Shown one piece after another: positions 8,766 through 26,089 of a stretch of 26,089 nt of DNA (position 1 is the first letter of the stretch; each line of letters begins with the position of its first letter). The notes under the pieces were generated by a model. It ran no database searches. It saw nothing but the letters and a program-made list of their open reading frames with translations, and was not told the DNA's origin. Source of the stretch: a virus. Location: the IMG/VR virus record IMGVR_UViG_3300017917_003616, positions 1-26,089 of that record; one strand, given 5' to 3'. The position numbers and the translations under genes are program-made.

Positions 8766-9179
8766 ATGCCTATACCTCAAACGATACGTGTAAATCCGTT
8801 AGATTTACGGAAGAATATTGCTATTGGGGTATCTTTACCTTTTAAAGGACCTTTTAAAAGTACTTTTACTACTAAGGATCAAATTAAGTCTAATTTAATT
8901 AATCTTTTACTTACCAATAAAGGTGAAAGAGTAATGAATCCTACTTTTGGATGTGATATAAAAAGACAATTATTTCAAAATATTACTACCGAATTACAAC
9001 AAAAAATTATAGATATTATTGTAGAATCTGTTAGAATATTCATTCCTGAAATACAACTTTTAAATGTAGTAGTATCTCCTGATATTGATTCTAATTCAAT
9101 AAGCATAACAATAGACTACAAAATAGTAATATCAAATACACCAGGTCAAGTAACAATTCAATTTGAAACAATTAGATAA
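8766..9179 (+). CDS. 25: gp25-like baseplate wedge protein (137 aa)
   Basis: The GPW/gp25 family pattern is clear: IKSNLINLLLTNKGERVMNP at 40-59 followed by TFGCDIKRQLF, then a helix and beta strands ending in VTIQFETIR. In contractile tails gp25 is part of the wedge core that contacts gp6 and the sheath and starts sheath polymerisation. Its length is normal for the family. The gp6 gene follows after two bases, the gene pair expected in T4-type phages. Confidence 0.92.
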   Translation: MPIPQTIRVNPLDLRKNIAIGVSLPFKGPFKSTFTTKDQIKSNLINLLLTNKGERVMNPTFGCDIKRQLFQNITTELQQKIIDIIVESVRIFIPEIQLLNVVVSPDIDSNSISITIDYKIVISNTPGQVTIQFETIR

Positions 9180-9181
9180 AA

Positions 9182-11008
9182 ATGATGACAAACGAAGATA
9201 AAAATATATCATATTTAAATAAAGATTTTGGCTCTTTTAAAGCAGAATTACAACAGTATGCCAAAACTTATTTCCCAACAACATACAATGACTTTACAGA
9301 AGCAACACCAGGAAATATGTTTATTGAAATGGCATCTTACGTTGGTGATGTTATGTCATTTTATCTAGATACCCAAGTACAAGAAAATTTCTTATTATAC
9401 GCTAAAGAAAAAGAAAATTTATACGCCCAAGCATATGTAATGGGTTATCGCCCTAAAGCATCGTATGCTTCAAATACTATAGTTGATATAAGCCAACTAG
9501 TTCCTTCTATTACTAATGCAGGTATAACAACACCAGACTATACTACTTATGGAGTTATAATACCAGAAAATACTATCCTTACTTCAACTACAACGGGTAC
9601 TAAATTTATAACAACTCAACAAGTAGATTTTACTGATACGGGTAGTACTGAAATTTCCTTTATAGATTCTAATTATTTTTTATTAAAAAAATCAGTTCCC
9701 GCTATATCAGCCGAAATAGTAGAAACTACAATCAATGTAGGTTCAAATCAAAAATTTGCTACTACTACTATTACTGATACTAATATATTACAAATATTAA
9801 ATGTTACTAGTAGTGATGGAAATCAATGGTATGAGGTTCCTTATTTAGCCCAATCATCTATTTTCAAATCACTAGCTAATCCTTCATACAATACAGATCA
9901 AGTTCCTTATTTATTACAGTTACAAAATACTCCTAGACGTTTTGTTTCTAGAATTTTATCTGATAATACATTACAGATGGAGTTTGGAGCTGGTTTATCT
10001 TCAAATAAAACTGATACTCAAATTATCCCAACCCCAGATAACATTCAAGCTGGTGTTGTACCCGGTATTTCATTATTAACTAATAATTATAATGAAGCTG
10101 GTACTTTCTTTACCCAAGAGTATGGTTTAGTACCTAATGGTGATTTAACAGTAAAATATTTAGTTGGAGGTGGTATTGAATCAAATGTACCTGCTAATGA
10201 TTTAACTGTTATTGATACAACAGGAGTAACATTTCCTGGTGGTGGTGGGGCTTTAAATGCTACAGTATTACAAAGTATAGTATCATCAAATCCTAATCCA
10301 TCTTCAGGAGGAAGAAATGGTGATACAGTAGATGAAATTCGCCAAAACGCATTATATGCTTATTCAACTCAATTAAGAGCTGTAACTAAAGATGATTATA
10401 TAGTAAGAGCAATGTCTATGCCTTCTGATTATGGTACTGTGGCTAAAGCTTATATTTCTCAAGATTTAAATCAAAATCCACAACAAACAGTAGCTACACT
10501 ACAACAAAATAATCCATTAGCTTTAGATTTATATGTTTTATCTTATAATAATGATAAACAAATAGTTACAGGATCTTTAACTCTAAAAAACAATTTAGTA
10601 ACCTATCTTAATCAATATAGAATGGTTACTGATGCTATTAATATTAAAGATGCTTATTATATTAATATAGGATTAAATTTTGATATAATTACATTAAGTG
10701 GATATTCTAATAAAGATGTAATAACTAACTGTATAACTGTACTAAAAGACCATTTCAATATAGATAAATGGCAAATTAATCAACCAATTACACTTTCAGA
10801 TATCACTTCTAAACTTTTACAAGTTAAAGGTGTACAATCAGTAGTTAAATTAGAAATAATAAATAAACAAGGAGGCGATTATTCTCAATATGGATATGAT
10901 ATTGCTGGTGCAACTAAAAATGGAAATATTTATCCTTCATTAGACCCAGCTATATTTGAAGTTAGATTCCCTGATATTGATATACAAGGTAGAGTAGTAG
11001 TAAGTTAA
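9182..11008 (+). CDS. 6: gp6-like baseplate wedge protein (608 aa)
   Basis: The N-terminus is diagnostic of gp6/baseplate J-like proteins: SYLNKDFGSFKAELQQYAKT, then DFTEATPGNMFIEMASYVGDVM, then AYVMGYRPK. The protein continues with beta-rich domains and a C-terminal part with KDDYIVRAMSMPSDYG and a final strand region. gp6 forms the hexagonal inner ring of the baseplate with gp25 and gp53 and is essential for tail assembly. Its length is close to that of T4 gp6 (660 aa). Two ATGs lie side by side (9182 and 9185); either may be used. Confidence 0.9.
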   Translation: MMTNEDKNISYLNKDFGSFKAELQQYAKTYFPTTYNDFTEATPGNMFIEMASYVGDVMSFYLDTQVQENFLLYAKEKENLYAQAYVMGYRPKASYASNTIVDISQLVPSITNAGITTPDYTTYGVIIPENTILTSTTTGTKFITTQQVDFTDTGSTEISFIDSNYFLLKKSVPAISAEIVETTINVGSNQKFATTTITDTNILQILNVTSSDGNQWYEVPYLAQSSIFKSLANPSYNTDQVPYLLQLQNTPRRFVSRILSDNTLQMEFGAGLSSNKTDTQIIPTPDNIQAGVVPGISLLTNNYNEAGTFFTQEYGLVPNGDLTVKYLVGGGIESNVPANDLTVIDTTGVTFPGGGGALNATVLQSIVSSNPNPSSGGRNGDTVDEIRQNALYAYSTQLRAVTKDDYIVRAMSMPSDYGTVAKAYISQDLNQNPQQTVATLQQNNPLALDLYVLSYNNDKQIVTGSLTLKNNLVTYLNQYRMVTDAINIKDAYYINIGLNFDIITLSGYSNKDVITNCITVLKDHFNIDKWQINQPITLSDITSKLLQVKGVQSVVKLEIINKQGGDYSQYGYDIAGATKNGNIYPSLDPAIFEVRFPDIDIQGRVVVS

Positions 11009-11027: not shown

Positions 11028-11627
11028 ATGAATTTAGACAAATTAAAAGGACACATTCCTGAAGCTGTTATAACCCAAATCCCAGGTGTTATGGAAAAAT
11101 TCCAAATTAACACTCCTCTACGTTTAGCACACTTTTTAGCTCAATGTGGTCATGAATCTGGTGGTTTTCGTTTAACAAAAGAAAACTTAAACTATAGTGC
11201 TAAAGGTTTAGCAAATACATTTAAAAAATATTTTCCAACCGAAGCAGCCGCTGCATCGTACGCTAGACAACCTGAAAAAATTGCCAATAAAGTTTATGGT
11301 AATAGAATGGGTAATGGCCCTGAATCATCAGGTGATGGTGCTAAATTTTGTGGTCGTGGTTACATTCAATTAACTGGAAAAGATAATTATACTGCATTTG
11401 GTAAATCAATTAATGAAGATTTAACAAAAGACCCAACAGTAGTAGCAGGTAAGTATGCCCTATTATCAGCAGCATGGTTCTTTAGCAAAAACGGTTTACA
11501 TAAAATGGCCGATGAAGGCGCTACTGATGCAGTTGTAACTAAGATTACTAGGCGTGTTAATGGTGGTACTATTGGTTTAGCTGATAGAATTAAGCATTTT
11601 AAAGAATATCACGCATTATTAGCATAA
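11028..11627 (+). CDS. GH19 chitinase-class lysozyme, tail-associated or endolysin (199 aa)
   Basis: Family 19 glycoside hydrolase features are present throughout: HFLAQCGHESGGF at 35-47 with proposed catalytic Glu43, a second acidic position Glu52 in TKENLNYSAKG, FCGRGYIQLTGKDNY at 107-121, and ITRRVNGG at 173-180. It has no signal peptide and no cell-wall-binding domain, so it is a single catalytic module. It would cleave peptidoglycan glycan. Lying between gp6 and further tail genes, it may be the baseplate lysozyme (the enzymatic role of T4 gp5) rather than, or as well as, the endolysin. No holin is adjacent. Confidence 0.88.
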   Translation: MNLDKLKGHIPEAVITQIPGVMEKFQINTPLRLAHFLAQCGHESGGFRLTKENLNYSAKGLANTFKKYFPTEAAAASYARQPEKIANKVYGNRMGNGPESSGDGAKFCGRGYIQLTGKDNYTAFGKSINEDLTKDPTVVAGKYALLSAAWFFSKNGLHKMADEGATDAVVTKITRRVNGGTIGLADRIKHFKEYHALLA

Positions 11628-19259: not shown

Positions 19260-20639
19260 ATGTCTTCATTCAAAAAGTTAAGCAAATCGGACGTTACAGT
19301 AGTACCAAATCATGCTAATAAGCAATGGTTATTAGATTATTGTCCTTATCCTACGTCATCTGAATACTTAACTATTTATAAAGGCACGAATGTTACTGGT
19401 AGTTTTTCTTTAGATGAAGATGTTACTGAGGGTCAATATGAACGGTTAGTTTATTCTCAAATAAATCAGTTATTCTATCAAGACTATACTGCTTCGTTAG
19501 ATACTAGTTCGTTAATGTTTACACTTAACAACTATGAATCTGCTTCTCAACAACGTCCTACTTCATCTTATTTCATATACAATGATAATAAGAATTTAAT
19601 TACATCCTTCCCTACAGGTGCTATGGAGGGAATTCGTGTATTAGCTATTAATCAAGACATTTATGGTAATAAAGTATTACCAAATCATTTTATCTTATCT
19701 TCATCTGCATATTATGTAACTGATGATGGTTTTGGTAATTTATATGATAATGGGTCAACTCATATCGGAAATTTATTTTATGCTCATGGTTTAGGCGTAA
19801 TAACAAACCCAGACTATCAGCTAATGTTTCCTTTACCACCAATAGCTAAAAATGATATTGGATATTTTTCAACAACAGATTCACCAAAAATAATTTCAGC
19901 ATCATCAAATGATTATGCTAGAAGTGGAACTTTAAATACAGGTTCGTTAATATTGTCTGGTAGTACATCAGGAACAAATTATTCTTGGGCTACAGGAAGT
20001 AATGGTACTATTGTTTTAACAACAACAGTTGCAGGTACTTATACCATTTATTATACAATTGGAGCTGATATAGCTGGTTCTTGTGCTGTTCAATTAAGAA
20101 GTAATAAGGCTAAAGTTACAGCTATTGTTACAGGAATAACACCACCAACAACAACTACTAGTACGACAACATCAACAACAACTGTAGCTCCTACTACAAC
20201 AACAAGTACGACTACAACAACAACAACAGCTGAACCTACTACTACCACTACTACAACAACAAGTACGACTACAACAACAACAACAGCTGAACCTACTACT
20301 ACTACTACAAGTACGACTACAACAACAACAACAGCTGAACCTACTACTACAACAACGACTAGTACAACTACATCTACCACTACATCTCCGGATACTTTTT
20401 ACTTAGCTGAGAGATATCAATGTGCATCTCCTGGTCCTGGCTGTACTGGCCCTGTTAGTGGAAGTAATGTTACAGTAGTACTTTCTAATGGAGCATCATC
20501 CACATTAAATTATTTCCATAACCCAGTAACTCCTGATGGTTATGTTTATAAATTAATAAGCACAACAACAGGTCCTGCTAGTATAACAGTAAAAACAGCA
20601 GGATATGGATCTTGTAATGATGCTTGTTTAAATCCCTAG
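19260..20639 (+). CDS. mucin-like fibre/adhesin with poly-threonine stalk (459 aa)
   Basis: Domains in order: residues 1-195, a beta-rich attachment part (QWLLDYCPYPTSSEYLTIYK near the start); 196-294, an Ig-like region (IAKNDIGYFSTTDSPKI, then AGTYTIYYTIGADIAGSC); 295-378, a stalk of almost pure Thr with single Ser and AEP/VAP spacers; 379-459, a small Cys-containing tip (YQCASPGPGCTGP and GSCNDACLNP, four Cys). The stalk resembles mucin-type linkers that are O-glycosylated in other organisms. Three glycosyltransferase genes follow directly. I infer a distal host-binding fibre whose stalk may be glycosylated. There is no signal peptide, as expected for a virion protein. The trinucleotide repeat DNA makes stalk length prone to change. 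Confidence 0.72.
   Translation: MSSFKKLSKSDVTVVPNHANKQWLLDYCPYPTSSEYLTIYKGTNVTGSFSLDEDVTEGQYERLVYSQINQLFYQDYTASLDTSSLMFTLNNYESASQQRPTSSYFIYNDNKNLITSFPTGAMEGIRVLAINQDIYGNKVLPNHFILSSSAYYVTDDGFGNLYDNGSTHIGNLFYAHGLGVITNPDYQLMFPLPPIAKNDIGYFSTTDSPKIISASSNDYARSGTLNTGSLILSGSTSGTNYSWATGSNGTIVLTTTVAGTYTIYYTIGADIAGSCAVQLRSNKAKVTAIVTGITPPTTTTSTTTSTTTVAPTTTTSTTTTTTTAEPTTTTTTTTSTTTTTTTAEPTTTTTSTTTTTTTAEPTTTTTTSTTTSTTTSPDTFYLAERYQCASPGPGCTGPVSGSNVTVVLSNGASSTLNYFHNPVTPDGYVYKLISTTTGPASITVKTAGYGSCNDACLNP
20148..20387 (+). repeat. ACN trinucleotide repeat tract with higher-order 48-57 bp units
   Basis: This tract encodes the Thr-rich stalk. A core starting AAGTACGACTACAACAACAA and running into GCTGAACCTACTACT occurs at 20204, 20261 and 20309 (spacing 57 and 48 bases), with a degenerate copy beginning near 20159. 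Unequal unit lengths in multiples of three point to in-frame slippage or recombination. Confidence 0.9.
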
Positions 20640-20666: not shown

Positions 20667-21626
20667 ATGAAAAATTTACGTTATGTTTGTGTTCAACCTC
20701 GCATACTATATTATGCTTGGCAGGTTGAAGTAATGATTAATAATTTTATTAAGCAAGGAATTAATCCAAACAATATTGACATTCTTGTTGCCTGGAATCC
20801 AAACGACGACACTTCAAAACCAGAAAACATAGAAGCATGGAATAAACTTGCTTCGCATTATAGTTCGGTTCGTTTTTTCTTTTATCAAGACACTAGACAA
20901 CAACCTATATACTACATTTCATCTGTACGCCCCAACGTATTAAAACAGCACTTTAAAGCGCATCCTGAATTGGAATCTGAGGCGATTTTCTATCATGATT
21001 GTGATATTGTATTTACTCGTAAGCCTGATTTTAATGCGTTTTTAAATGATAAAATTTGGTATTTAAGTAATACAAATTCATACATTAATTATGATTATAT
21101 CATATCTAAAGGATTAGATGTATATGACAAAATGTGTAAAATAGTTAACATAGATTCTATCATACCTAAGCTAATGAACTCAAATTCAGGTGGTGCTCAA
21201 TATCTAATGAAAAATGTTGATTGGGTATTTTGGGAATTTGTTGAACGGGATAGTGAAAAATTATTTAAAGAAATAACTGAATTAAATAATATTAAAAAAG
21301 CAAATGATCCTAACCACCACGAACTCCAGATTTGGTGTGCTGATATGTGGGCTGTTCTTTGGAATGGATGGATGTTAGGAAATGAAACTAAAGTAGTACC
21401 TGAAATGGATTTTAGTTGGGCTACTGATCCATCTAACAGATGGAATGAAACTCTAATCTATCACAATGCAGGTGCAACTTGTGGTTGTGGTGGTACTTTC
21501 TATAAAGCACTATATATGGATCTATTACCATATAGTTTAAATGCAGAAAAATTTGATAAAGAAAAAAATTGTTATAACTACGTTTTAGAAATAATAGAAA
21601 CAGCCCAAAAATCATGTCTAATTTAA
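20667..21626 (+). CDS. putative GT-A glycosyltransferase with DxD motif (319 aa)
   Basis: EAIFYHDCDIVFTRKPDF holds the DxD metal and nucleotide-sugar motif (Asp111-Cys-Asp113) after a beta strand, as in GT-A folds. Later elements are NSGGAQYL at 173-180, CADMWAVLWNGWMLG at 224-238, VVPEMDFSWATD at 243-254 and IYHNAG at 264-269, the order seen in donor- and acceptor-site loops. The overall layout faintly recalls peptidyl hydroxyproline/serine glycosyltransferases, but this is a weak impression. No membrane segment or signal peptide is present, so it would act in the cytoplasm. It starts 27 bases after the mucin-like fibre gene and overlaps the next glycosyltransferase gene by 13 bases. Confidence 0.75.
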   Translation: MKNLRYVCVQPRILYYAWQVEVMINNFIKQGINPNNIDILVAWNPNDDTSKPENIEAWNKLASHYSSVRFFFYQDTRQQPIYYISSVRPNVLKQHFKAHPELESEAIFYHDCDIVFTRKPDFNAFLNDKIWYLSNTNSYINYDYIISKGLDVYDKMCKIVNIDSIIPKLMNSNSGGAQYLMKNVDWVFWEFVERDSEKLFKEITELNNIKKANDPNHHELQIWCADMWAVLWNGWMLGNETKVVPEMDFSWATDPSNRWNETLIYHNAGATCGCGGTFYKALYMDLLPYSLNAEKFDKEKNCYNYVLEIIETAQKSCLI

Positions 21627-22303
21627 AAGTAGCAGGAATGATGAGATTAGCTGAGGTTGATCAAACAAAAGTAGGTAAAAGATTAATGAAATTATCTATT
21701 CAATCATTAGCAGATAAAGTTTCTCAAATATATTTCCTTCAAATAGGTCTTATTGATAATGATATTATAGAATTTATTAATAATTTGCCTATTAAAATTA
21801 AAATTACTAACCAAACTACTAATTACAATAGTGGGTGGGCATTTAAAAATAATGAAAGCTTAGACGATTTATACCAAACAATAGATAAAAATTTTGACTG
21901 GATACTATACCCAGATGCAGATGATTTACTACCAGAAAATATATTAGAATTATGTGAAAAAGCAGATTTAGAAAATAAAAACACAATACGTTTACATTTT
22001 ATCGAATGCTTTGGTTCAGAAAATAATATTATTGAAATAAAACCAGGATATCCTATAGGTCCTCATTTTAAAGCAATTAAACCATTTGAAGGATTAACAT
22101 TTATTGGTAGTGATGGTTTTAACGAAGCAAAAGGTCCTTTAAATAGATATGAAACTCCATATTGTATAAGACATTTAAGATATGCAAATATAGATAATAT
22201 CAAACAAAGACAAAAAATGAATTATTTTCAATCCTATTTTTTAGAAGAACATAAAACAAAAGAATACAAACCTAATCAAACAATAAATTATTACTATGCA
22301 TAA
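21614..22303 (+). CDS. putative small GT-A glycosyltransferase (229 aa)
   Basis: FDWILYPDADDLLPENIL (about 94-110) contains the Asp-x-Asp-Asp motif (101-104) at the end of a strand, as in family 2-like GT-A enzymes. Upstream, KVSQIYFLQIG and the NQTTNYNSGWAFKNN region fit a nucleotide-binding first half. At 229 residues it is compact and lacks membrane segments. It overlaps the preceding glycosyltransferase by 13 bases and the following one by 8, so the three enzymes are made together. Donor and acceptor are unknown; the preceding fibre is the suggested acceptor only from context. Confidence 0.7.
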   Translation: MSNLKVAGMMRLAEVDQTKVGKRLMKLSIQSLADKVSQIYFLQIGLIDNDIIEFINNLPIKIKITNQTTNYNSGWAFKNNESLDDLYQTIDKNFDWILYPDADDLLPENILELCEKADLENKNTIRLHFIECFGSENNIIEIKPGYPIGPHFKAIKPFEGLTFIGSDGFNEAKGPLNRYETPYCIRHLRYANIDNIKQRQKMNYFQSYFLEEHKTKEYKPNQTINYYYA

Positions 22304-23087
22304 GAAAGTAAGTTTTGTTTGTACAACATATAGACGTTTTACTTGTGTAGAAAGAGTAGTAGCACAATATTATGCACAAACTTATCCAAACAAAGAATTG
22401 ATCATATTCAATACAGATGAAGAATATCCGTATGAGTTAGGATTTGGAGATGATAGTATTATAATTGTAAATAACAATATAAATTATCAAACAGCATGTG
22501 AATATGAGAATAGAGGACAAATATGTAGAGATGCGGTTACTCACGCTACGGGTGATTATTTTATGTTAGCAGATGATGATGACATTTATTTACCTTGGCA
22601 TCTCCAACAAGCAATAGATGGTATAGAATTAAATAAAAAAGATGCATGGAAACCAGAAATGAGTTTCTTTGCTAGCCAACAAGAGGTAAAAATAGTAATG
22701 AATACCCTAGAGGCTTCTGTTATTGTTAAAATGGATAGAATACGTGAAATTGGATTTAGAAGTGATTTAACAGGATATGAAGGATTAAGTTGGTACACTA
22801 GATTAAGAGATGAAGGACAATTGGATGAACATAATAAAAATTATGTACCTTCATATTGTTTTAATTGGAGTGATCCTTCAGAAATAGCAGGACATAAACA
22901 AAGTGGTGATATTAATAACCCTAATAACTTTGAAAATCACAAACAAGCTAGTGGGGATTATGCTAAAAAACCATTATCTAGAATTGAAATAGGTACAATC
23001 TATGATAAGTACTATGATTATTTACGTACCAATAAAGATCAATTTAATCAAGAATACTATAAAAAGTATGCACTTCAATATTTATAA
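22296..23087 (+). CDS. family 2-type glycosyltransferase (263 aa)
   Basis: Classic GT2 layout: KVSFVCTTYRRF at 4-15, a strand-helix nucleotide-binding region, ENRGQICRDAVTHATGDYFM at 71-90, then LADDDDIYLPWHL with the acidic metal site at 93-96. The second half has GYEGLSWYTRLRDEGQLDEH, compatible with an acceptor region and catalytic base. There is no transmembrane helix, unlike lipid-linked polysaccharide synthases, which favours a soluble protein- or DNA-modifying enzyme. It is the last of the three overlapping glycosyltransferase genes, and the fibre-module gene follows after two bases. Confidence 0.82.
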   Translation: MHKKVSFVCTTYRRFTCVERVVAQYYAQTYPNKELIIFNTDEEYPYELGFGDDSIIIVNNNINYQTACEYENRGQICRDAVTHATGDYFMLADDDDIYLPWHLQQAIDGIELNKKDAWKPEMSFFASQQEVKIVMNTLEASVIVKMDRIREIGFRSDLTGYEGLSWYTRLRDEGQLDEHNKNYVPSYCFNWSDPSEIAGHKQSGDINNPNNFENHKQASGDYAKKPLSRIEIGTIYDKYYDYLRTNKDQFNQEYYKKYALQYL

Positions 23088-23886: not shown

Positions 23887-24834
23887 ATGGATAATACAGC
23901 TTTACTATTTCTAACTGAATCAGTACTGGGTAAGGGACAAGCTACAAGCAAAGGCAACTATGCTTTTAAGTGTCCGTTCTGTACCCACCATAAAAACAAG
24001 ATGGAAATTAGCATGCGCACAACGGAAAAGAAAGAAAATTTCTGGCATTGTTGGGTGTGTGGAGCTAAAGGCAAAACATTACTATCATTATTTAAGAAAA
24101 TCAAAGCACCAGCTGCTAAGATAGCAGAATTAAATATATTAGTAGTACCTAATAAGAAAGATAAAACGATTGAACAAGGCGCTCCTGAACTACCTAAAGA
24201 ATTTATTTCATTTAGTGATCATGAAAAATTTGTAACTGATAGAATTGCTCAAATTGAATCAAAACATGCTTTCAAATTCTTATCTAAGCGTGGTATTACT
24301 AATGAAGATATTATAAAATACAATATTGGTTTTTGTAAAGATGGACCTTATGCTGAACGAATTATTATACCATCATACAATGAACTAGGCCAATTAAATT
24401 ACTTTATCGCTAGAGCTTATAAAGATTCAGATCGCAAATATAAAAATCCACCAATAGCATCTAAGGAAGCTATTGGTTTTGAACTATATATAAATTGGGA
24501 CGCACCAATCATACTTGTTGAAGGTATGTTTGATGCATTAACAATTAAACGTAATGTTATACCTTTATTTGGTAAAGTATTACATGACAAACTAATGAAG
24601 AAATTAGTTGAATCCTCCGTAAATCGTATTTATATTGCTTTAGATAATGATGCTAGAAAAGATGCTTTAAAACAAGCTGAAACATTAATGTCGTATGGTA
24701 AAGAAGTATATCTAGTTGAAATGGAAGGTAAAGATGCTAATGAAATTGGTTTTGAACAATTTCTCAACACAATTGAGCAAACACAACCTCTTGATTTAAA
24801 GAGTTTGCTTGAAAAAAAATTACAATTAATATGA
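23887..24834 (+). CDS. DNA primase, CHC2 zinc finger and TOPRIM (315 aa)
   Basis: The N-terminal zinc finger is CPFC at 29-32, His34/His35 and CWVC at 55-58. The linker has KFLSKRGITNEDIIKYNIGF at 130-149. The TOPRIM centre is ILVEGMFDA with Glu212, and ALDNDA with Asp253 and Asp255; these acidic residues bind catalytic metals. The protein corresponds to T4 gp61-type primase, shorter than bacterial DnaG and lacking its helicase-binding C-terminal domain. It makes RNA primers for lagging-strand synthesis with the phage helicase. The next gene overlaps by four bases (ATGA), coupling primase to a nuclease. Confidence 0.9.
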   Translation: MDNTALLFLTESVLGKGQATSKGNYAFKCPFCTHHKNKMEISMRTTEKKENFWHCWVCGAKGKTLLSLFKKIKAPAAKIAELNILVVPNKKDKTIEQGAPELPKEFISFSDHEKFVTDRIAQIESKHAFKFLSKRGITNEDIIKYNIGFCKDGPYAERIIIPSYNELGQLNYFIARAYKDSDRKYKNPPIASKEAIGFELYINWDAPIILVEGMFDALTIKRNVIPLFGKVLHDKLMKKLVESSVNRIYIALDNDARKDALKQAETLMSYGKEVYLVEMEGKDANEIGFEQFLNTIEQTQPLDLKSLLEKKLQLI

Positions 24835-25613
24835 TCGAAAAAAATGTAAACATTATCAAAGATCCTAAAATCAAACGTATTGTTGAATACGCTGAAGGGG
24901 ATAAACAAGTTAATGTTTTAGACAGTAGATTTTACAGACGAGAAGGTAATTATTATCCTTCAGTAACGTCAATCTTGAATTACTTTCCTAAAAATCAATT
25001 CTTCCACTCTTGGTTGAAAGATGTAGGACATAATTCAGATATTATTGCAGCTAAAGCAGCAGGTGAAGGTACTCAAGTACACAACGCTGTAGATGCTTTC
25101 TTAAACGGACAAGAAATTACTTGGATTGATGAGTTTGGAAATGCTAAGTACAATTTAGATGTTTGGAGAATGATTTTACGCTTTGCTGATTTCTGGAACA
25201 CACATAAACCAGAATTAATTGCAACTGAATATCATTTATTCTCAGACGAACACAAATATGCTGGTACAGCGGATTTAGTTGTTAGATTATTTGATAATAT
25301 TTGGTTATTGGATCTTAAGACATCAAATTCACTTCATACGAGCTATGATTTGCAATTAGCTGCTTATGCTCAAGCATGGAATGAAACACATGATGAGAAA
25401 GTAACTCACACAGGTATCTTATGGGTTAAAGCAAATACTCGTGGAGAAGGAAAGAACGGAAAGATACAAGGTAAAGGATGGGAATTAAAGTTCGTAAATG
25501 AAATTGATAAGAACTTTGACATGTTTAAGAAAATATATGACATATACAAGTTAGAAAATCCTGATTTCAAGCCTATGACTGAATTATTACCCACATCGGT
25601 CAAAATTTCTTAA
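24831..25613 (+). CDS. PD-(D/E)XK nuclease, RecB/Cas4-like exonuclease fold (260 aa)
   Basis: RecB-type nuclease motifs are visible in order: GEGTQVHNAVDAFL with His84, TEYHLFSDE with Glu133, YAGTADLVV with Asp148, LLDLKTS with Asp161 and Lys163, and YDLQLAAYAQAW with Gln175 and Tyr179. This is the H-E-D-DxK-QxxxY signature of RecB/AddB/Cas4-like nucleases. No iron-sulphur Cys set is seen, so it is not a typical Cas4. It probably trims DNA ends during recombination-dependent replication. It is translationally coupled to primase and followed by a leader and terminator. Confidence 0.85.
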   Translation: MIEKNVNIIKDPKIKRIVEYAEGDKQVNVLDSRFYRREGNYYPSVTSILNYFPKNQFFHSWLKDVGHNSDIIAAKAAGEGTQVHNAVDAFLNGQEITWIDEFGNAKYNLDVWRMILRFADFWNTHKPELIATEYHLFSDEHKYAGTADLVVRLFDNIWLLDLKTSNSLHTSYDLQLAAYAQAWNETHDEKVTHTGILWVKANTRGEGKNGKIQGKGWELKFVNEIDKNFDMFKKIYDIYKLENPDFKPMTELLPTSVKIS

Positions 25614-25649
25614 TATATTTATGCTTGAAAACCAAAAGTTTTTATATTG
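25614..25649 (+). promoter_or_regulatory. possible promoter region before the TonB receptor gene
   Basis: TATATTTAT at 25614-25622 looks like a class 2 box. Separately, TTG at 25625-25627 and TATATTG at 25643-25649 could be -33 and -7 elements, with a gap of 15 bases that is slightly short for Bacteroidetes. Either start would place the terminator at 25685 inside the leader of the receptor gene. Confidence 0.4.
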
Positions 25650-25668
25650 TTACACAAGTATTACACAA
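25650..25668 (+). promoter_or_regulatory. direct repeat TTACACAA x2 at helical spacing, operator-like
   Basis: TTACACAA occurs at 25650-25657 and again at 25661-25668, an 11-base period that puts both copies on the same DNA face. The repeat begins right after the -7-like TATATTG. This arrangement suits a regulator bound as a dimer; no regulator is identified. Confidence 0.4.
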
Positions 25669-25684
25669 CTGTAAATAACGATTT

Positions 25685-25716
25685 GAGCGGGGACGTTGTC
25701 TCCGCTCTTTTTTTTT
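25685..25716 (+). terminator. strong Rho-independent terminator
   Basis: GAGCGGGGAC (25685-25694), loop GTT, GTCTCCGCTC (25698-25707): a 10-bp stem with one G-T pair, followed by nine T (25708-25716). It ends the primase-nuclease transcript or acts as an attenuator of the next gene, whose ATG is only 18 bases past the T tract. Confidence 0.92.
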
Positions 25717-25734
25717 AACCAAAACAAAACATAA

Positions 25735-26089
25735 ATGAAAAAAGCGATTTTATCGTTACTTCTTTCAGCACTATTTTTAGTGGGATTTGGTCAGGTTACC
25801 ACATCCTCTATCTCTGGTGTTGTTAAGAATGAAAAACAAGAAGTACTAGTAGGTACCGTTGTAGAAGCAATACACGTTCCTACAGGTACAAAGTACAAGA
25901 CCGTTACAAATAAGAATGGTGTTTATGTGTTACCTGCTGTTAGAGTAGGTGGTCCATATGTAATCCATGCTTCGTTTGTAGGATTTAAAAAGAGTGAAGA
26001 AACAGATGTAAACGCTCAATTGGGTGTTACTACAAACGTTGACTTTGCTTTAGTAGATGAGAAATCAACTCTTAAAGAAGTAGTTGTAA
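25735..26089 (+). CDS. TonB-dependent outer-membrane receptor, N-terminal part (118 aa, runs off the window)
   Basis: The reading frame is open to the window end. Residues 1-20 form a Sec signal peptide (MKKAILSLLLSALFLVGFGQ). Residues about 24-110 are a CarboxypepD_reg-like beta-sandwich (SISGVVKNEKQEVL, then TNKNGVYVLPAVRVGGPYVI and HASFVGFKK), the N-terminal extension of SusC-type receptors. The last residues LKEVVV are the usual entry into the plug domain (LxEVVVTA). Such receptors import glycans, siderophores or vitamins across the outer membrane with TonB energy. Its presence directly after phage replication genes is unusual; it could be phage-carried cargo or mark a junction with host DNA. 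The ATG follows AACCAAAACAAAACATAA, an A-rich Bacteroidetes-type start. Confidence 0.85.
   Translation, partial: MKKAILSLLLSALFLVGFGQVTTSSISGVVKNEKQEVLVGTVVEAIHVPTGTKYKTVTNKNGVYVLPAVRVGGPYVIHASFVGFKKSEETDVNAQLGVTTNVDFALVDEKSTLKEVVV

Follow-up and report, generated by a model that had tools for sequence, protein, structure and literature searches.

An Oar-type TonB-dependent transporter gene as probable mobile cargo of large freshwater Bacteroidota phages

The window analysed here, a linear viral record of 26,089 bases with the gene content of a phage (annotation search), ends inside a gene for an Oar-type TonB-dependent receptor (TBDR). We consider it probable that large tailed phages infecting freshwater Bacteroidota carry this gene as mobile auxiliary cargo, and that it encodes a complete Oar-type importer that sustains uptake during infection. 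Phages supply their hosts with photosynthesis, phosphate, and carbon genes; outer-membrane gates in phages have, to our knowledge, hitherto been reported just in passing. If the receptor is indeed widespread, exchanged, and TonB-coupled, infected lake cells would import on the phage's terms, which bears on how phages manage TBDRs, themselves common phage entry points.

The phage genes of the window include baseplate wedge subunits (8766-9179 and 9182-11008) and an endolysin (11028-11627). Towards the 3' end, a DnaG-like DNA primase with a zinc finger and a Toprim domain (23887-24834, plus strand; Pfam/annotation search) and a PD-(D/E)XK exonuclease (24831-25613, plus strand) precede the receptor gene, an order of primase, nuclease, and receptor that the initial annotation had read correctly. 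It had set the start of the receptor feature at 25614; positions 25614-25734 (plus strand) form a non-coding leader, which puts the true gene start 121 bases later, at 25735. Its 5' part, 118 codons at 25735-26088 (plus strand), runs open into the contig end. Residues 1-20 form a signal peptide (MKKAILSLLLSALFLVGFGQ, 25735-25794, recognised by eye), residues 25-106 match CarboxypepD_reg (PF13620, E 2e-17, Pfam; 25807-26052), and residues 113-118, LKEVVV (26071-26088), correspond to a TonB box by conservation in 56 distinct phage proteins. The signal peptide and the CarboxypepD_reg domain had both been named from the DNA; LKEVVV had been taken for the entry to the plug, but it is the TonB box itself and supplies the last six residues of the frame, with the plug beginning beyond them. 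That the window stops inside the gene is probably an assembly break caused by near-identical gene segments common to co-occurring phages; 16 further contigs likewise stop within the TBDR gene.

A gene cut by a contig end, seen in the window alone, could mark an assembly chimera or a host boundary, with misassembly or integration having attached a chromosomal receptor to the phage. Relatives make this scarcely credible. The closest one, 98% identical over the 118 residues and in the same gene order, lies on a 179-kb phage contig, where a full-length TBDR (1090 aa) has the phage exonuclease on one side and a zeta-toxin-like kinase on the other; beyond the kinase come a nucleotidyltransferase (in cultured relatives NadR-like) and further phage genes. 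The receptor is thus carried by the phage, and the suggestions that it might be a truncated remnant or that the contig passes into host DNA both fall away. Searching IMG/VR with the 118 residues returned 32 loci in other viral contigs with a related N-terminus (40-98% identity), so the observation in the window is not due to chance; where the contig is long enough, the frame mostly has 1085-1096 aa, one copy being split. A profile search of IMG/VR gave 148 matching stretches, from which 80 loci were kept; this is a minimum for the Oar-type family, which occurs on metagenomic contigs of up to 321 kb and in no fewer than seven genomic contexts. Of the 19 large TBDR contigs tested, 13 encode the terminase large subunit. 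The junction recurs in independent contigs with a gap of 122-125 bases, phage genes flank both sides, no compositional step leads up to the TBDR gene in the window, and the phage copies are merely 67-70% identical to chromosomal genes. Given the flanked full-length copies, the many large contigs, and the terminase, we reject host contamination and chimerism.

Relatives of the window gene exceed the cut-off for the barrel family PF25183 (OMP_b-brl_4). None of the phage TBDRs tested matched PHROGs v4, and among named phages the only Oar-type match was a 6-kb faecal fragment at 31%. The initial annotation had considered SusD as a downstream neighbour. No SusD-like gene was seen beside the Oar-type TBDR, whose neighbours are the kinase, GroEL, an endonuclease, and others; the lipoprotein partner belongs to a second TBDR type found in the same slot.

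Comparison of 80 exonuclease loci indicates that the slot 3' of the exonuclease, which forms its left border, is a cargo hotspot. The next gene is a kinase, a nucleotidyltransferase, an Oar-type TBDR, a TBDR of another type, or some other gene, and in some relatives the slot is empty. Among the fillings are a second TBDR, unrelated to the first and paired with a lipoprotein, a third type of TBDR (L085), and a small secreted protein (L065) which, by eye, looks like an outer-membrane barrel. Empty and filled sites have a common kinase leader (AATATTTATAGGTGGCTTGG...CCAGGTCACCTATTTATATTCACGTATG), so the cargo is bounded cleanly by the exonuclease stop and that leader. In Flavobacterium phage immuto, a cultured relative with a 57% identical exonuclease, the position holds a hypothetical protein. 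TBDR presence is scattered over the exonuclease tree with 7 changes, at least four of them forced by well-supported branches, counts that are indicative, given the small size of the exonuclease and the possibility that it undergoes recombination of its own.

The second TBDR family (Plug plus OMP_b-brl_3, TonB-Xanth-Caul-like; e.g., L040:10814-14256) occurs in about 80 further loci (L264-L343) and is as widespread as the Oar-type; a lipoprotein gene lies downstream where seen, and some phage contigs carry both types. Its host homologues adjoin genes that by eye resemble SulP-type transporters and carbonic anhydrases, and no phosphate genes.

The best matches to the Oar-type gene in the bacterial collection are chromosomal genes of Sediminibacterium-like Chitinophagaceae (67-70%), followed by Cytophagales (46-48%). 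On the tree, 18 phage proteins and six chromosomal Sediminibacterium-like ones form one clade with full support, and L030/L032 and L085 (a long branch) appear to be separate acquisitions. The chromosomal Oar-like TBDRs of Sediminibacterium and other Chitinophagaceae (L114-L119) are orthologues of the phage proteins over 1090 aa; they differ in lying among bacterial genes, and the host orthologue was found in no informative gene cluster. The phage host is probably a member of the Chitinophagaceae related to Sediminibacterium, as judged solely from this TBDR relationship. In a larger TBDR tree (FastTree), 22 changes of genomic context are required, and two phage copies fall within the chromosomal ones. 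This pattern indicates that phage lineages pass the gene among themselves, probably with more than one exchange with hosts as well. It is a host-derived gene within phage genomes and varies among close relatives, as a phage auxiliary metabolic gene does.

We modelled the relative L023 with AlphaFold2 from an alignment of 66 phage and bacterial homologues, replacing an earlier, poor AlphaFold model built from 21 sequences. The model (pLDDT 86.5, pTM 0.82) is a 22-strand beta barrel with an internal plug, the strands being counted by hand from the DSSP string. Its nearest solved structures are TonB-dependent transporters (Z 27-33, maximum 32.8; BtuB, FhuA, FusA, Cir, and others), and the single strong match in the viral structure library is a marine phage 'TonB-dependent receptor SusC' (BFVD A0A8D9FQQ5); a search by sequence found no solved structure. 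Patchy presence, together with a copy split into two frames (L011/L256), might point to an inert, decaying passenger from the host. This is very improbable in view of the intact frames of more than 1000 codons in 67 phage loci examined and a median dN/dS of 0.16 (Nei-Gojobori, 934 pairs).

The TonB box reads mostly L-x-E/D-V-V/T-V/I in the 56 distinct phage proteins and is conserved between variable linkers, with an entropy of 0.1-0.7 bits in its core versus 1.6-2.8 for the six residues before it. Divergence from the host orthologues is 13% in the plug, the most conserved part of the phage TBDR, 27% in the strands, and 31% in the outer loops, with loop borders assigned by hand from the DSSP string. 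The outer loops hold 1 fixed phage-versus-host difference in 491 positions, and within phages they are no more variable than the strands. Sequence comparison therefore indicates that purifying selection holds the TonB box, the plug, and the outer loops. No MotA/ExbB protein was detected in 19 phage contigs, so the phage TBDR would have to borrow the Ton system of the host. With the conserved TonB box, plug, and loops, this makes an importer powered by the host Ton system the most likely product.

The initial annotation had offered both a change in nutrient uptake and a decoy or replacement receptor as functions. Conservation of plug, loops, and TonB box favours the former: it points to a functional Ton-coupled transporter that keeps the specificity of the host, and away from an altered replacement. 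A replacement of that kind is reportedly made by phage PA-2, a lambdoid phage whose porin Lc is a phage-encoded outer-membrane barrel that takes the place of the host porin used as receptor; Lc is a diffusion porin of a temperate phage, whereas the gene described here encodes a predicted TonB-coupled transporter with unaltered loops. Superinfection could also be excluded by flooding the outer membrane with phage receptor that soaks up competitors or titrates TonB against TonB-dependent phages. TBDRs are classic phage receptors (FhuA for T1, T5, and phi80; PMC11658791), a conserved TonB box is compatible with titration, and retained host-like loops are compatible with a decoy mimicking the host receptor. 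However, the loops match the host and are not hypervariable, which lends no support to a receptor changed to evade binding. Neither plug nor loops would be retained for titration alone, and one exclusion protein known to target a TBDR is instead a small lipoprotein (Llp, in complex with FhuA in PDB 8a60). We therefore rate exclusion as rather unlikely.

Less likely still is an Oar-like export function, the release of a phage or host protein such as the secreted endonuclease that some of these phages encode alongside the TBDR. Oar of Myxococcus xanthus is required for secretion of the PopC protease (PMC6434023), and the phage protein resembles it in its CarboxypepD_reg extension, TonB box, plug, and 22-strand barrel, a likeness of architecture and domain order that would be compatible with export by analogy. 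Oar is a bacterial protein needed for protein secretion, while the Oar-type gene described here is carried by phages and its role is a predicted one. A secreted DNA/RNA endonuclease gene lies within three genes downstream in 11 loci, but most copies lack it as a neighbour, and the copies showed no secreted partner in common. In several phage lineages, this DNA/RNA non-specific endonuclease follows the TBDR directly or nearly directly (L004:13355-13990 and relatives).

For the importer, the favoured reading, the protein would be exported to the host outer membrane during infection, couple to host TonB-ExbBD, and import the type of ligand that the host orthologue takes up, as homology suggests; uptake would then be sustained through a long and costly infection. 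More tentatively, these phages might share a pool of mobile transporter cassettes, with at least three TBDR types (one with a lipoprotein) and expression governed by a conditional leader hairpin, and use it to redirect what infected cells import or export.

The non-coding leader of the Oar-type gene travels with it in the exonuclease slot and is absent from empty-slot relatives. In the window it contains a terminator-like hairpin (GAGCGGGGACGTTGTCTCCGCTC, 25685-25707, plus strand) followed by a T-run; the feature ends 27 nt before the ATG. Of 65 distinct phage TBDR leaders, 49 have a similar hairpin with T-run, ending 24-52 nt before the start codon. The background is 6.6% for the remaining gene starts on the plus strand of these loci and 22% for those whose upstream gap exceeds 60 nt. 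The hairpin was present in none of the six chromosomal orthologues, a further difference between these and the phage genes. The stem sequences vary between genomic contexts, and little space is left for a host-type promoter from the hairpin to the start codon. The hairpin may act as an attenuator, or it may be an insulating terminator to which a short phage late promoter is fused. A repeat, TTACAC-N5-TTACAC-N5-TAAATA, at 25650-25677 invited a Pho-box reading; the repeat is not conserved beyond the exonuclease-slot group, which leaves host phosphate control without support.

Phage-borne TBDRs have precedents. A TBDR 'SusC' in the marine megaphage Mar_Mega_1 and huge phage LR745206 was read as a carbohydrate-uptake gene (PMC9723777), and these are likewise full-length TBDRs in very large phages, proposed as auxiliary uptake genes. 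LR745206 matches the second TBDR type at 27% and gives no match to the Oar-type family, and the passages of that account consulted here describe no hotspot, inter-phage exchange, leader, or host clade. Phrases naming phage-encoded TonB receptors had no match in the open-access literature searched. Within that literature, the protein family is already known, and its scale in phages, the cargo slot and mobility, the inter-phage exchange, and the leader hairpin appear to be new.

Further features were seen in the leaders and in the window. The motif ATATTTAT at 25615-25622 (plus strand) resembles a phage late promoter. It occurs ten times on the plus strand of the window and never on the minus strand (sites include 3338, 4230, 5562, 8387, 11645, 17553, and 25615), for the most part in short gaps with 11-30 nt to the next gene start (119 nt in the case of the TBDR), and is a candidate late-promoter motif of the phage group of the window. 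Leaders of L040 and L085, which hold different TBDR types in the same slot, have a common short hairpin of the form AGTGAATnnAATTCACTT directly before the start codon. By eye, the leaders of one phage group (L222-L246) carry, ahead of the TBDR hairpin, a short Tyr/Phe-rich ORF that may encode an attenuator peptide; short leader ORFs are not conserved in frame in the group of the window. The tail region of the window includes a protein (19260-20639) with a Thr-rich low-complexity repeat (20090-20380) and three successive glycosyltransferase-like genes (20667-23087), of which one has a Pfam match (Glycos_transf_2); this set varies among close relatives.
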